From: Bacillota bacterium
GTDB taxonomy: Bacteria > Eremiobacterota > SpSt-956 > JAKJGF01
Assembly (NCBI GenBank): GCA_029555925.1
Contig: JAKPQU010000285.1
Span: forward strand, 1-14,856
Direction of reading: 5' to 3'
DNA length: 14,856 nucleotides
Position 1 is the stretch's first letter; each line of letters begins with the position of its first letter. This document shows, in pieces, positions 4,741 through 12,496 of this stretch. Made by a program: the position numbers and the translations under genes. Under the pieces are notes generated by a model. The model did not search any database. It had not been told where the DNA came from and was given only the letters and a program-made list of their open reading frames with translations.

Positions 4741-6975
4741 TTATATCATATCAAGCACATCCGATACGATGTCAAAATATTTATAACTTTCGTCATCCGG
4801 TGTATATTCTTCTTTTAATTCTTTAATCACCATTAATCTATTTGTAGCCTGAAGAAGTGAATAATAAGTTGTAAGTAAGAATAATCTCAGGTGAGTTGTT
4901 TTATACATTTCTATATCACTCTGAGCCTGCGTATATTCGCCGAGAGATTTCTGTATAAACATTTTGACTATTGAATCCGTGTCATCTACAGTGCTTAATA
5001 ACTGATTTTTTTCTGATATGTTATGAATCAGGCCGGCCAGTAAAGATATTTTTTCCAGAAATACTTCCTGACTTACCTGACCTATATGAAACCCTATAAA
5101 AGTATCCATAAAATCGTCCAGAGTGCTGTTGTAGAGGGGTGCTATTTTATATTCAAGACCTAAAGTCAGGAGTTTGTTTGATATAGTAAGTACCTGTGTG
5201 CTGAATACAAGCTCCAGCATATTTTTATTCTGGTAGAAAGTCTGTATTTGATCTATTGCCGTCTGAGTAAAGGTTATGGCTATGAGTCCTTTTTCAAGTA
5301 TCCACTGTTCCAGATAGGTCAGCCCCTGAGGAAATCTGTAAGTATCCCAGTGATTGGTTATACTATCTACTGTCTGTCTCAAAAAAATCAGGATATTATT
5401 TTGCATGAATTCCACTCTTTTACTGAGTTTAAGCAGAGTACTTTCTCCTTTGGGACTGTAGAGATTTGGATTCGCAAAACATTCTTCTACCAGTGTTATG
5501 AGACCGCTTATGGCTTCAGCCTTTTTTATTTTGCTCCATTGCTGCAGTTTTAACGAGTGATCTCTTAAAGCAGTGAATAATTCTTTTATCCATCCGCTTA
5601 GTTCCCATGGGCTTTCCAGGGCATGGGGAAGTCTTTCTATTTTTAATTCCAGATAGGTCAATTTATCAAATAACTCTTCCAGATTTTCATCGGACAGTAT
5701 ATAATCATCTTCATTGCCTGAGTAAGGATCCTCTTCCAGATTATACCAGTTTTTCCAGAGATCACTTATTTTATATCTCATATTTATTTCATATTCGTTT
5801 ACTCTGATCCATTCATCATAAGGCAGTTCATCGGCTTTAATTATTACGGCATCTTCCAGTAATTCACTTTCTTCTACCTGGGCTATTTCTATTACTTTCA
5901 TAATAGAACTGAGATATTCTGCTATACTGAGTCCTGCATTTAATGTAGCTACTATTTTATCCATAGTTTCTGTTCTTGCATCCTGAAAATTTATATAGAA
6001 TTTTGATATGTCGTAGATGAATAGATAATTTGAAGCTACAAGAAATAAAAGAGTTTTTACTCTCTCCATAAATATTTCTCCGTAATTTGAGAGTACCTCT
6101 TCAAGTGTATTAAGTATTCTATTTAATACACTCATATTTATACGTTGCTGGAAACCACATTCAGCAAGAAGTTTTATTTCAGATTCTGATAAAGATATTC
6201 CGATATTCTGCAATCTATTATTTAAATCTTCATATTGCTGTTCTGTTAATTTTTTACGTTCTAACGGAGGGCGGGTAATTTTCGCTATTTCCAGGGAGGA
6301 ATGATGTTCAATGTCTTTTCTTTCTATTCTTTCCCTGGGAATTTTAAGAGTAATAGAGAGTTTTTTTTCCGAATGTGCTAAAATTAAATCTATTTCGTCC
6401 TGATTGTAACCCAGATGTGACAGTGTTTTAGATAAACCTTTAGCAGAAAGTTTTTTATGTTTTAAATAATTTTCCAGAGCATTGAGTTTAAGTGCATTTA
6501 AATGGGTTTTCTTTAAATTATCTATGACATCTCTGTCTATTTCATACCATGGCTCGTTTGGAGCAAGTGTTTCTTTTGGTATGATTTCCTGTATTTCAAG
6601 TGCAGCAGTTGATTCTCCTGAAGGAATATTGTGAAGTTTTGCATCAATATCCAATAATATTTTATTTATGTCCTGTATCTTATTAATTTTTTCTTCAAGT
6701 TCGTTTGTTTCTGTACTCTCATCGTCAATGAACAGACTGATATCATCCAGCATATCAATATATTCTTTTATTATGTCGATATATTTTAGCAGCAGGTCTT
6801 TTTGTTCTTCCGTCCCGCCTTTTTTTAAATTTATCTTTATTTTTCTTAATAAAATTTTCATTGCACCTTCGGTTTTTTCAAGATATTCTAACAGAATATA
6901 TCTTTCTTCACCTTCAAGGACTGTGTTCATTTTGTTAATCAGTTCTGTAGAATATTCAGAATTATATCGTTCCAT
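4741..6975 (-). CDS. Large unrecognised helical protein, 744 aa
   Basis: I do not recognise this protein. It has no signal peptide and no convincing membrane span. It is rich in Glu, Lys, Leu and Ile and looks almost wholly helical, with likely coiled-coil stretches in the first 115 residues. Near residues 160-205 a helical segment contains LSKTLSHLGYNQDEIDLIL, reminiscent of a small three-helix module of the RuvA C-terminal/UBA type, and a loosely similar segment follows at about 238-275; this resemblance is weak. The C-terminal half carries no motif I can name. ATG 6975 is chosen over the TTG at 6987 because GGAG ends 6 nt before the ATG. It is the first gene of the minus-strand block; the next gene begins 127 nt on, beyond two heptamer arrays. 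A scaffold or structural role with the HEAT protein is only a guess. Confidence 0.75.
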   Translation of the reverse strand: MERYNSEYSTELINKMNTVLEGEERYILLEYLEKTEGAMKILLRKIKINLKKGGTEEQKDLLLKYIDIIKEYIDMLDDISLFIDDESTETNELEEKINKIQDINKILLDIDAKLHNIPSGESTAALEIQEIIPKETLAPNEPWYEIDRDVIDNLKKTHLNALKLNALENYLKHKKLSAKGLSKTLSHLGYNQDEIDLILAHSEKKLSITLKIPRERIERKDIEHHSSLEIAKITRPPLERKKLTEQQYEDLNNRLQNIGISLSESEIKLLAECGFQQRINMSVLNRILNTLEEVLSNYGEIFMERVKTLLFLVASNYLFIYDISKFYINFQDARTETMDKIVATLNAGLSIAEYLSSIMKVIEIAQVEESELLEDAVIIKADELPYDEWIRVNEYEINMRYKISDLWKNWYNLEEDPYSGNEDDYILSDENLEELFDKLTYLELKIERLPHALESPWELSGWIKELFTALRDHSLKLQQWSKIKKAEAISGLITLVEECFANPNLYSPKGESTLLKLSKRVEFMQNNILIFLRQTVDSITNHWDTYRFPQGLTYLEQWILEKGLIAITFTQTAIDQIQTFYQNKNMLELVFSTQVLTISNKLLTLGLEYKIAPLYNSTLDDFMDTFIGFHIGQVSQEVFLEKISLLAGLIHNISEKNQLLSTVDDTDSIVKMFIQKSLGEYTQAQSDIEMYKTTHLRLFLLTTYYSLLQATNRLMVIKELKEEYTPDDESYKYFDIVSDVLDMI

Positions 6976-7049
6976 AAATTTCTCCAACCAGTTTTCTCTT
7001 AATTGTATTATTTACTATAATTTTGCATTTTTTACACAAAGTCTTATGC

Positions 7050-7157: not shown

Positions 7158-7190
7158 CGTGACGCGTAACGCATAAAGCGTGACGGGAGG
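7158..7190. repeat. Heptamer array, CGTRACG type, four units
   Basis: Four consecutive 7-mers CGTGACG (7158-7164), CGTAACG (7165-7171), CATAAAG (7172-7178, degenerate) and CGTGACG (7179-7185), ending in GGAGG (7186-7190). The same outer units and 3' edge occur in the arrays near 10339 and 12465. Confidence 0.85.
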
Positions 7191-7521: not shown

Positions 7522-8532
7522 ATGCTAACGAAGTCTTGTATTTTAATAGTTGATGATGATCCGGATATTTTGAAATTATTGTCTTTGACACTTCAGAAAA
7601 GAGGATATCATGTAGTAACTGTAGGGCGAGGAATTGATGCCATCAAGGAAGTAGAGAGAAATAAATTTAATATTATATTATTAGATTTGAAGATGCCGGG
7701 TCTGGATGGTATGGAAACTTACAGGAGAATAAGATTACTTGATTCTGACGTTACGGTTATCATGATGACCGGTTATCATGATGAAGATGTGCTCAGGCAG
7801 GCCCTTAAAGAAGGTGTCTTCAGTGTTGCTCTTAAACCTCTTGACATAGCTAAAATGGTCAGTCTTGCAAACCTGAAATTAATCAATGTCTTCTATGATA
7901 TGACGTCAGATGAAATCAGTGAGATAGCAAATATAACTACTGAATGTAAATTTTCACCCAAAGAAGTAATATTTATACCGGACGATACTGCCGATGCAGT
8001 TTATTTTTTAACCAACGGACGGGTAAAACTTTATCAGATTTCATCAGAAGGAAAAGAGATAACGCTCGGTATCTTACAGCCAGGAGATATTTTCGGTGAA
8101 ATGGAAACTCTCGGACAGAGCAGACGTGAAGTTTTTGCCGAAGCCATGGATACATGCTATGCATGTAAAATTGATAAGAAGCCTTTTGAAAAGATGATTC
8201 AGGAAAAACCTAAAGTGGCATTGAAACTTATACAGGTCATGGCCAGGCGATTTCAACAGGCTCAATCAAAAATAGAGGATATGGCTTTTCGTGATGTTAC
8301 AGGAAGACTGTCCAAATTAATACTCAAGCTTGCAGAGGAATTTGGTGAACATACATCAAAAGGTATAAAGATAAGTGTAAAGCTTACTCATAGAGATATA
8401 GGTAATATGATTGGTGTTTCAAGAGAAACTACTACTTCTACGTTGAATAATTTTAAGAAACAAAGGTTTATAGACTTCAGTAGGAGATATATTACGGTTC
8501 TGGATAAAAAAGGCTTGGAAAATCTTATTTAA
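7522..8532 (+). CDS. Response regulator receiver domain fused to a CRP/FNR-type transcription regulator
   Basis: A 336-aa cytoplasmic DNA-binding protein. Residues 1-122 form a receiver domain with all key residues: acidic pocket D11-D13, phosphoacceptor D55 (LLDLKMPGLDG), T83 and K105 (KPLD). Residues about 125-245 form a cyclic-nucleotide-binding-type barrel with GEITLG-like strands and GDIFGEM. At the phosphate-binding cassette E193 and R202 are present, but the residue after the Arg is E203 rather than Ser/Thr, so cAMP or cGMP binding is doubtful. Residues 289-318 are a Crp-type helix-turn-helix (LTHRDIGNMIGVSRETTTS). The architecture implies that a histidine kinase, not a nucleotide, sets DNA binding; no kinase gene is nearby. 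The start has GAAGG 5 nt and GGAG 11 nt upstream. An extended -10 promoter and a hairpin leader precede it. Downstream is only a weak A/T hairpin, not a clear terminator. Confidence 0.93.
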   Translation: MLTKSCILIVDDDPDILKLLSLTLQKRGYHVVTVGRGIDAIKEVERNKFNIILLDLKMPGLDGMETYRRIRLLDSDVTVIMMTGYHDEDVLRQALKEGVFSVALKPLDIAKMVSLANLKLINVFYDMTSDEISEIANITTECKFSPKEVIFIPDDTADAVYFLTNGRVKLYQISSEGKEITLGILQPGDIFGEMETLGQSRREVFAEAMDTCYACKIDKKPFEKMIQEKPKVALKLIQVMARRFQQAQSKIEDMAFRDVTGRLSKLILKLAEEFGEHTSKGIKISVKLTHRDIGNMIGVSRETTTSTLNNFKKQRFIDFSRRYITVLDKKGLENLI

Positions 8533-8686: not shown

Positions 8687-10108
8687 ATGGTAGACAAAAA
8701 CTGGGAAGATGAGATTAAAAAGGTAGACATACATATATTATCAGGTTTTTCTGCATCAGGCAAAACTCTTGCCAATAGATTTCTTGAAGAACTGGGATTT
8801 ATAACAATTTCTCCTACTTCTCCCAATGATATAACTCAGGATGTTAAATCTCTTGTCATGAGAGGTATTAAAAAAATTGTTGTTAATGTCGATATTAGAA
8901 CTTATATAGCCAGTTGTCTTGAAAGGGAGCCCTTTCTTTCTTCTTTCAACAGAGCACTCGAGGAACTGTTCAATCCTCCTGTAATGTTTTTAAGCTGTTC
9001 AGATGAGGTGCTTATAAGGAGATTAAGCAAAGAAGGACGTTCTCTTCATCCTCTCTCTGCTATTTTAAGTATGGATATATCGGTGGAAGAGGCTCTTTCA
9101 CTTGAAAAAAGCATATTAATGCCTGTAAAAGAAAAAGCCAGATTTATTATAGATACTACTCTTACGAGTGTGTGGGGATTGAGAAGAAAGATTTTCGAGA
9201 TTTATACATCTCCTACTGATTTCAGTGATAAATTTACTAAATATTTTCTTTCAGATAGTGTCCATTATGATCAGGTGTTGCTGGACGTTGCAAAGAACAT
9301 AGTTAAAAAAGTAATTTCTGAAGTAAAGCCATTGTTGCTTTTTGATGCAGCCCGTTCCGGTGAAAAAGTTGAAAATCTTCGTGAAAAAGATCCGGAAGAT
9401 GAAACGAGAAAGATAGACATTATAGCAGAACAGGAATATATTCTTGGTCTTGAAAATAATGTAGGTGTACCCTATCTGTTGCTTACTGAAGAATCAGGTG
9501 AAATTGAAGTTGGAAAATCAAATCCTGATTTGATGGTTTTTGTAGATCCTCTTGACGGAACTGATCTTGCTATAAGAAGGATACCTTTATGTGCCACTTC
9601 TATATGTTTTTATTCTAAAACTCTTGGTGAATTCCTTGCTTCTGTAGTTGGAGATATTTTTACCGGACTTATTTATTATGCAAGTAAAAGTCAGAGCGGT
9701 GCCTATATGGAAGGTAATGATTTCGGGCCTATAAGGATTTTCCCGTCCCGCGTAAAATCTCTTTCTGATGCTTTTATAGCCAATTATGCTATAAAGCCTC
9801 AGAGACTGGTTTCTCTTGGAGAACAGAAGAATTTAATCCTTAAGTCCCTTAGAATGTTTAATAACGGAGGACCTCTTGAAATATGCAGAGTTGCATCTGG
9901 AGATACAGATGCCCTTGTTGAGTTTAATAAAGGTTTTGCCGGCTATGATTTATACTCCGGTGCTTTTATTTTATCTAAATCAGGCGGTATATGTAATCGT
10001 CTGGACGGAAAACCTCTGGAGGTCAGTGAAGATGTTAATTACAGGCAAAAATTTATTGCTGCCTGTAATGTAGAATTATTTTCCAGTATTAAAGATGTAC
10101 TGGTTTGA
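8687..10108 (+). CDS. RapZ/YvcJ-like P-loop domain fused to an inositol-monophosphatase-family domain
   Basis: A 473-aa two-domain protein. Residues about 13-172 match the N-terminal nucleotide-binding domain of RapZ (YvcJ): Walker A GFSASGKT (20-27), LEELGF (33-38), a VNVDIR strand (67-71) and the family-specific RRLS..GRSLHPLS (111-124), then DTTLTSVWGLR (156-166). RapZ then has its own C-terminal domain, which in E. coli binds glucosamine-6-phosphate and regulatory RNA. Here residues about 190-465 are instead an IMPase/FBPase-type phosphatase with its metal ligands: TEESGE (E268, E269), DPLDGTD (D287, D290) and GYDLYSG (D421) before SKSGG. Both halves look intact, suggesting a Mg-dependent sugar- or nucleotide-phosphate phosphatase coupled to a nucleotide-binding switch; substrate unknown. 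An in-frame stop precedes ATG 8687, so the start is fixed although the Shine-Dalgarno is weak (ACAGG, 11 nt away). No clear terminator follows. Confidence 0.9.
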   Translation: MVDKNWEDEIKKVDIHILSGFSASGKTLANRFLEELGFITISPTSPNDITQDVKSLVMRGIKKIVVNVDIRTYIASCLEREPFLSSFNRALEELFNPPVMFLSCSDEVLIRRLSKEGRSLHPLSAILSMDISVEEALSLEKSILMPVKEKARFIIDTTLTSVWGLRRKIFEIYTSPTDFSDKFTKYFLSDSVHYDQVLLDVAKNIVKKVISEVKPLLLFDAARSGEKVENLREKDPEDETRKIDIIAEQEYILGLENNVGVPYLLLTEESGEIEVGKSNPDLMVFVDPLDGTDLAIRRIPLCATSICFYSKTLGEFLASVVGDIFTGLIYYASKSQSGAYMEGNDFGPIRIFPSRVKSLSDAFIANYAIKPQRLVSLGEQKNLILKSLRMFNNGGPLEICRVASGDTDALVEFNKGFAGYDLYSGAFILSKSGGICNRLDGKPLEVSEDVNYRQKFIAACNVELFSSIKDVLV

Positions 10109-10338: not shown

Positions 10339-10372
10339 CGTGACGCGTAACGCGTAACGCGTGACGCGAGGA
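10339..10372. repeat. Heptamer array, CGTRACG type, four perfect units
   Basis: CGTGACG (10339-10345), CGTAACG (10346-10352), CGTAACG (10353-10359), CGTGACG (10360-10366), then the edge sequence CGAGGA (10367-10372). The array is bracketed by TGTCTC (10321-10326) and its complement GAGACA (10375-10380), and further out by TAGGAATG (10300-10307) and CATTCCTA (10394-10401). Confidence 0.9.
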
Positions 10373-10414
10373 AAGAGACAATTAATAAATTTTCATTCCT
10401 AAATAATAAAAAAA

Positions 10415-10434
10415 TCCTCGCGTGACGCGTTACG
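10415..10434. repeat. Heptamer array in opposite orientation, two units
   Basis: TCCTCG (10415-10420), CGTGACG (10421-10427), CGTTACG (10428-10434). On the minus strand this is CGTAACG, CGTCACG, CGAGGA, so it is inverted relative to the array at 10339. Its 10415-10428 pairs with 10359-10372 at 13 of 14 positions across a 42-nt loop. Confidence 0.8.
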
Positions 10435-12464: not shown

Positions 12465-12496
12465 CGTAACGCGTAACGCGTAACGCGTAACGCGAG
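12465..12496. repeat. Heptamer array, four perfect CGTAACG units
   Basis: Four identical 7-mers CGTAACG (12465-12471, 12472-12478, 12479-12485, 12486-12492) followed by the edge CGAG (12493-12496) and an A-rich stretch. The array begins 42 nt after the stop of the kinase-like gene and lies in the same orientation as the array at 10339. Confidence 0.92.

Follow-up and report, generated by a model that had tools for sequence, protein, structure and literature searches.

What does a RapZ-type P-loop domain do when it is joined, in one protein, to an enzyme domain of the inositol monophosphatase (IMPase) family? The question is raised by a gene on the plus strand of contig JAKPQU010000285.1 (assembly GCA_029555925.1), of which a stretch of 14,856 nucleotides, here called the window, was analyzed. 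A natural fusion to a measurable enzyme would directly report which ligand the RapZ P-loop domain senses. The function of that domain outside Escherichia coli is unclear, as for YvcJ, whose role in Bacillus subtilis is called unclear (PMC7525490). We find that two known domains are joined in one real, rare and conserved architecture. What the protein does is answered more tentatively, in favor of a phosphatase gated by a ligand.

Domain make-up of the fusion

The gene (8687–10108, plus strand) is one unbroken frame of 473 codons, ATG to TGA. Pfam places both halves. PF03668 (RapZ-like_N) matches residues 14–172 (76.8 bits, E 2e-21, cut-off 25.4), and PF00459 (Inositol_P) matches residues 220–446 (68.1 bits, E 1.1e-18, cut-off 27). 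An earlier, sequence-only reading had assigned the N-half to the RapZ family and proposed that an IMPase domain stands in the place of RapZ's own C-terminal domain. Both points hold up: PF03668 is well over its cut-off, and PF22740, the RapZ C-terminal domain, to which glucosamine-6-phosphate and RNA bind in E. coli, finds no match in the fusion sequences. The signatures on which that reading relied are present as well, namely GFSASGKT (20–27), RRLS (111–114), GRSLHPLS (117–124) and DTTLTSV (156–162) in the N-half, and the metal site residues E268, D287, D290 and D421 in the C-half. D244, L289 and T292, which by equivalence to human IMPase complete such a site, are present too.

Of the eight NCBIfam families listed for the fusion protein, none attains its cut-off, and all give partial matches only. 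The best score is that of PRK12676, a fructose-1,6-bisphosphatase (FBPase)/IMPase model (116.5 bits versus a cut-off of 264). PRK14076 (NADP phosphatase/NAD kinase) scores 95.5 bits against a cut-off of 493, with the IMPase half alone matching positions 5–279 of the 570 in the model, and the full-length RapZ equivalog PRK05416 scores 79.5 bits, below its cut-off of 244. Because the defining C-domain of RapZ is missing, the fusion should not carry the name 'RNase adapter RapZ'. This suggests that the automatic name, borne by one of its relatives (P0004, see below), is misleading for such fusions, and that the usual RapZ C-terminal domain is replaceable.

Solved structures are matched by sequence in both halves: AF2372 IMPase (E 5.8e-14), E. 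coli RapZ (9.7e-14) and Rv1421 (2.7e-12). In the predicted structures, the N-half has a RapZ-type fold and the C-half an IMPase-type fold. The N-half was modeled and searched alone, since all 50 matches listed in the full-length comparison spanned only the C-half; its nearest folds are the N-terminal domain of Rv1421 and E. coli RapZ. Among those 50 matches, the highest structural-alignment identity to the C-half, 30%, belongs to the archaeal dual IMPase/FBPase type. SuhB entries, one of them a complex with NusA, are among the top Protein Data Bank (PDB) matches of the C-half, as matches of fold only.

Lineages, conservation and genomic setting

Relatives were sought among about 5.8 billion proteins, of which only the candidates sharing most words were scored (7997 in a first search and 7995 in an alignment-based search), and by a scan that took one genome from each species and detects close relatives only. 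It follows that more distant fusions may exist. Five fusion clusters, full or partial (P0001–P0005), were among the 12 matches of the first search and again among the 8 of the alignment-based search; the latter brought only P0013 as an addition, which in its matching part shares 99% of residues with the window protein. The genome scan yielded a single locus, L001. The distinct lineages number five, as follows: window/P0001 (96% identical), L001/P0004 (identical across 385 residues), P0002, P0003 and P0005. Identity between lineages is 64–87%, with the window and L001 fusions at 84%. Taxon labels differ, P0004 being assigned to Candidatus Eremiobacteraeota and L001 to Bacillota.

Thus, the fusion is not limited to one assembly. 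The open-access literature yielded no description of a RapZ P-loop plus IMPase architecture and no paper pairing RapZ with inositol monophosphatase, in keeping with the earlier impression that it was uncharacterized. An assembly or frameshift artefact fusing two adjacent genes, for which the rarity of the fusion and nothing more speaks, is refuted by the independent fusion sequences and deserves practically no credence: the frame is continuous through the junction in all five lineages. Over its 28 residues, the junction is 89% identical between the window and L001.

Between the same two genes, the P-loop half shows a nonsynonymous divergence (dN) of 0.082 and a synonymous divergence (dS) of 0.909 (NG86); for the IMPase half, the values are 0.104 and 1.352. 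Purifying selection acts on both. The fusion alignment comprises 7 sequences, L001 and P0004 being one lineage. D244, E268, D287, D290, T292 and D421 are invariant in all 7, and L289 is replaced once by isoleucine. The 5 sequences that extend to Walker A all have the same motif there. After about residue 459, P0003 no longer follows the other fusions, and its last ~20 residues may reflect sequencing-adapter read-through.

Of the 149 phylum genomes, a single one has the fusion, namely that containing L001 (G001), from which gene content was read. In 102 others, the RapZ half gives the best match (3 of these also have a separate IMPase match), and 46 show no match to the fusion-built profile at E ≤ 1e-5; because of these 46, a missing canonical RapZ is not rare in itself. 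The best-matching 29 of the 102 were retrieved. A GlmR-like frame adjoins rapZ in 26 of the 29 loci (L003 has only part of one, where its contig ends); among the remaining three, L004 and L027 are clipped by contig ends, and L015 shows no GlmR-like frame. The C-terminal domain PF22740 is present in 10 of 10 canonical RapZs scanned from this set, and their PF03668 scores are 147–176 bits versus 77 for the fusion.

In a tree of the P-loop domains of 5 fusions, the 29 phylum RapZs and a further canonical RapZ, P0007, the fusions group together as a single clade (support 1.0), and the branch that carries it is long, at 1.72 substitutions per site. Relative to the other 30 sequences, the fusion has one extra residue shortly N-terminal of the HP motif. 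In 5 of the 29 canonical RapZs (L007, L011, L019, L027 and L031), leucine replaces the Walker A lysine (GLSGAGLS), a sequence that suggests a RapZ branch binding nucleotide differently or not at all.

In G001, the fusion is the sole PF03668 match above cut-off. PF22740 is unmatched there at E ≤ 0.1, in a genome whose completeness is not established and with a control that was positive in 7 of 14 reference genomes. G001 has a GlmR gene, which scores 394 bits with the CofD family and 399.9 bits with the YvcK model (cut-off 196). It is not next to the fusion, and its neighbor is a gene that, from its sequence, we take to be glycoside-hydrolase-like. G001 also encodes an inositol-3-phosphate synthase (PF07994, 340.9 bits; 7nwr, E 4.7e-163). 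PF00459 has two matches there at E ≤ 0.1, the fusion and L033; the best scores of L033 (HisN 108.8, PRK12676 92.9 and CysQ 90.7 bits) are all under cut-off. A glpX FBPase was found, and the idea that the fusion is the organism's sole FBPase was therefore rejected; no class I FBPase was found in G001 at E ≤ 0.01.

As for the origin of the C-half, its next-best match in the phylum scores 41.6 bits versus 562 for G001. Two stand-alone actinobacterial proteins, Nocardia P0014 (E 6e-26) and Nonomuraea L040 8001–8861 (E 7e-28; the site is unannotated in the record), are 32–33% identical to it over most of the domain. Since the phylum matches are weak by comparison, horizontal acquisition of the C-half is possible. 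Among plasmid records, 48 match the query and none covers 80% of it, all 15 matches listed falling on the C-half. On the Thiodictyon plasmid pTs485, an IMPase-family gene directly adjoins an antiviral radical SAM gene of the viperin family, and integrase genes lie close by (L041 3974–5731). A phage origin was considered and rejected: viral contigs scanned with the fusion alignment and with P0007 gave no relative, P0014 was unmatched in phage records (where the fusion itself was not searched), and the best viral structure match, a giant-virus fructose-bisphosphatase, has only 14% identity.

A proposed ligand-gated phosphatase and its alternatives

We favor, tentatively, the reading of the fusion as a two-domain, ligand-gated small-molecule phosphatase. 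The C-half would be a Mg2+-dependent phosphatase of the IMPase fold, most likely acting on myo-inositol monophosphate and/or a hexose phosphate. The N-half, by homology to RapZ and YvcJ, would bind uridine diphosphate (UDP), UDP-N-acetylglucosamine (UDP-GlcNAc) or another nucleotide. Ligand binding would shift the shape or oligomeric state of the N-half, raising or lowering phosphatase output, and the fusion may be functionally linked to the response-regulator/Crp protein encoded next to it. That nucleotides control the processing of a phosphorylated metabolite by the fusion, as the sequence-only reading had it, is plausible: it fits the conserved active-site residues and the published binding of UDP and UDP-GlcNAc by relatives. 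The nucleotide-sensing half of RapZ, a regulator of the cell wall, seems to be wired straight onto an enzyme in an uncultured bacterial lineage.

Published work on these relatives bears on the ligand as follows. YvcJ binds UDP-GlcNAc, a K22A change abolishes the binding, and YvcJ interacts with UDP-GlcNAc-bound GlmR; it is also said to possess nucleoside triphosphatase and phosphatase activities (PMC7525490). The isolated N-domain of Rv1421 is stabilized most by UDP and less by UDP-GlcNAc, ADP, UDP-glucose and ATP, whereas binding of glucosamine-6-phosphate (GlcN6P) was not detected (PMC11229554). In E. coli RapZ, the C-domain responds to GlcN6P, and the N-domain is seemingly auto-inhibitory (PMC7073468). 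The fusion retains the nucleotide-binding half of RapZ and is without the GlcN6P-binding half.

With an inositol-3-phosphate synthase, L033 and a glpX FBPase in G001, inositol phosphate is a sensible first substrate, and fructose-1,6-bisphosphate is a weaker one. Another sugar phosphate is possible because the loop LRxFNNGGPLEICR differs from that of the aligned stand-alone IMPases. A more specific version of the ligand-gated phosphatase, improbable as a whole, is that in this lineage RapZ, a sensor of cell-wall precursors, gave up the domain that binds metabolite and RNA and became joined to an inositol or sugar phosphatase. The level of UDP-GlcNAc would then set the size of a metabolite pool through catalysis and not through RNA decay or GlmR binding, with the protein perhaps still partnering GlmR and the response-regulator/Crp protein.

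Several points weigh against gating, or against the substrates proposed. The substrate loop is unlike that of the aligned stand-alone IMPases, and the scores to all IMPase-type NCBIfam equivalogs are far below cut-off; the substrate may therefore be a compound other than inositol phosphate or fructose bisphosphate. The role of inositol phosphatase could belong to L033. The chemistry of the subfamily may be unusual, as its closest stand-alone relatives read DPLDTS for DPLDGT; judging from this motif, the actinobacterial proteins are perhaps a distinct IMPase subfamily. In archaeal MJ0917, the best precedent, the IMPase-family half reportedly acts as NADPase and FBPase and lacks IMPase activity (PMC8553519). 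Rv1421 has arginine where Walker A normally has its lysine (PMC11229554), so its ligand preference need not transfer. The Walker A motif of the fusion is itself altered, A23 replacing a glycine found in 30 of 30 comparison sequences. The full-length model carries no inter-domain error estimate, and we know of no RapZ-family P-loop domain that gates a fused enzyme.

The P-loop half might instead be a passenger that merely aids the folding, oligomerization or localization of an unregulated IMPase, which we consider unlikely. Its divergence, seen in the low PF03668 score and the long branch, would suit a passenger, but the Walker A K26 and the VDIR, RR, HP and DT motifs are retained, and this half has a slightly lower rate of evolution than the IMPase half. 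Less probable again is a bifunctional antagonistic enzyme, the P-loop half being a true kinase and the IMPase half stripping the same phosphate. MJ0917 sets the precedent that an IMPase-family domain and a kinase can form an antagonistic pair (PMC8553519). The N-domain of the fusion, however, is closest to Rv1421 and RapZ, which have been studied as binding or sensor proteins. The MJ0917 kinase belongs to a different fold family, and small-molecule kinase activity is, to our knowledge, not established for RapZ-family N-domains.

Equally doubtful is a signaling or scaffold protein, in which the IMPase half would be chiefly a binding module, as in SuhB–NusA, and the whole protein would modulate the response-regulator/Crp neighbor much as RapZ modulates QseE/QseF in E. 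coli. The kept adjacency and high conservation of that gene are consistent with such a role, as is the presence of SuhB, including its NusA complex, among the top matches of the C-half. E. coli RapZ, moreover, binds QseE and QseF, and two-component control has been proposed by its authors as a possible primordial function (PMC7073468). On balance, the ligand-gated phosphatase is the reading that we tentatively retain.

Neighboring genes and comparison with known systems

Table 1. Positions of the fusion gene, its parts and the upstream gene in the window.
Feature	Position	Strand	Evidence or remark
Fusion gene, 473 amino acids, RapZ-type P-loop + IMPase-family domain	8687..10108	+	Open reading frame; Pfam; P0001–P0005; L001
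RapZ-like N-terminal P-loop domain, residues 12–172 (Walker A 20–27, VDIR 68–71, RRLS 111–114, GRSLHPLS 117–124, DT 156–157)	8720..9202	+	
Junction, residues 173–200	9203..9286	+	Secondary structure: helix 176–187; RapZ C-terminal domain absent
IMPase-family phosphatase domain, residues 201–473 (D244, E268, D287, L289, D290, T292, D421)	9287..10105	+	
Response-regulator receiver + cyclic-nucleotide-binding domain + Crp-type helix-turn-helix gene, upstream of fusion	7522..8532	+	Pfam

The receiver/Crp gene adjoins the fusion in both the window and L001, with gaps of 154 and 7 nucleotides, and is possibly co-transcribed with it. No terminator-like or promoter-like site is listed in the 154-nucleotide gap; promoter-like sites are not enriched in the window, with 13 versus a mean of 14.8 in shuffles. 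Of five genes compared between the window and L001, the receiver/Crp gene (88%) and the fusion (84%) have the highest identities, the three other neighbors being at 60–70%. In a search that scored no more than 14 candidates from each genome, a whole-length receiver/Crp match was found only in G001, other matches covering mainly the Crp part. Downstream of the fusion lies a Ser/Thr kinase-type gene (Pfam) with a C-terminal hydrophobic stretch. Gene order is the same in the window and L001: pilin-like, queA, HEAT-repeat, 748-residue protein, response-regulator/Crp, fusion and kinase.

The 748-residue protein (4741–6987, minus strand) has no Pfam match over cut-off and is matched at E ≤ 1e-5 in 1 of the 149 phylum genomes (G001, 60% identity). 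At 59–1111, the C-terminal region of a 2-oxoacid:ferredoxin oxidoreductase beta subunit and a gamma subunit share a single frame, the start of which may lie upstream of position 1. GC-rich intergenic CGTRACGCGTRACGCG repeats are found at 7158–7173, 10339–10434 and 12465–12494 (8 partly overlapping matches at ≤1 mismatch; 0 in 200 shuffles) and may be small repeats of a mobile or structural kind. An RNA element was rejected, as the window has no Rfam match at gathering score.

Compared with known systems, the fusion shares with RapZ, YvcJ and Rv1421 the P-loop domain and its Walker A, VDIR, RR...HP and DT motifs, whereas it lacks PF22740, carries alanine for a Walker A glycine and is not beside glmR in G001. 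With the archaeal dual IMPase/FBPase enzymes (AF2372, MJ0109; PRK12676), it has in common the fold and the metal and catalytic residues of the C-half; it differs in scoring under the equivalog cut-off of 264, in its altered substrate loop and in the added P-loop domain. Nocardia P0014 and Nonomuraea L040, the best-scoring C-half relatives outside the fusion, share the GD(I/L)F and EF.KGFA motifs but have no P-loop domain and read DPLDTS where the fusion reads DPLDGT. MJ0917 (PRK14076) likewise joins an IMPase-family domain to a partner, in its case a kinase. That partner is an NAD kinase, not RapZ, and the order of the halves is reversed, the IMPase half being N-terminal in MJ0917 and C-terminal in the fusion.
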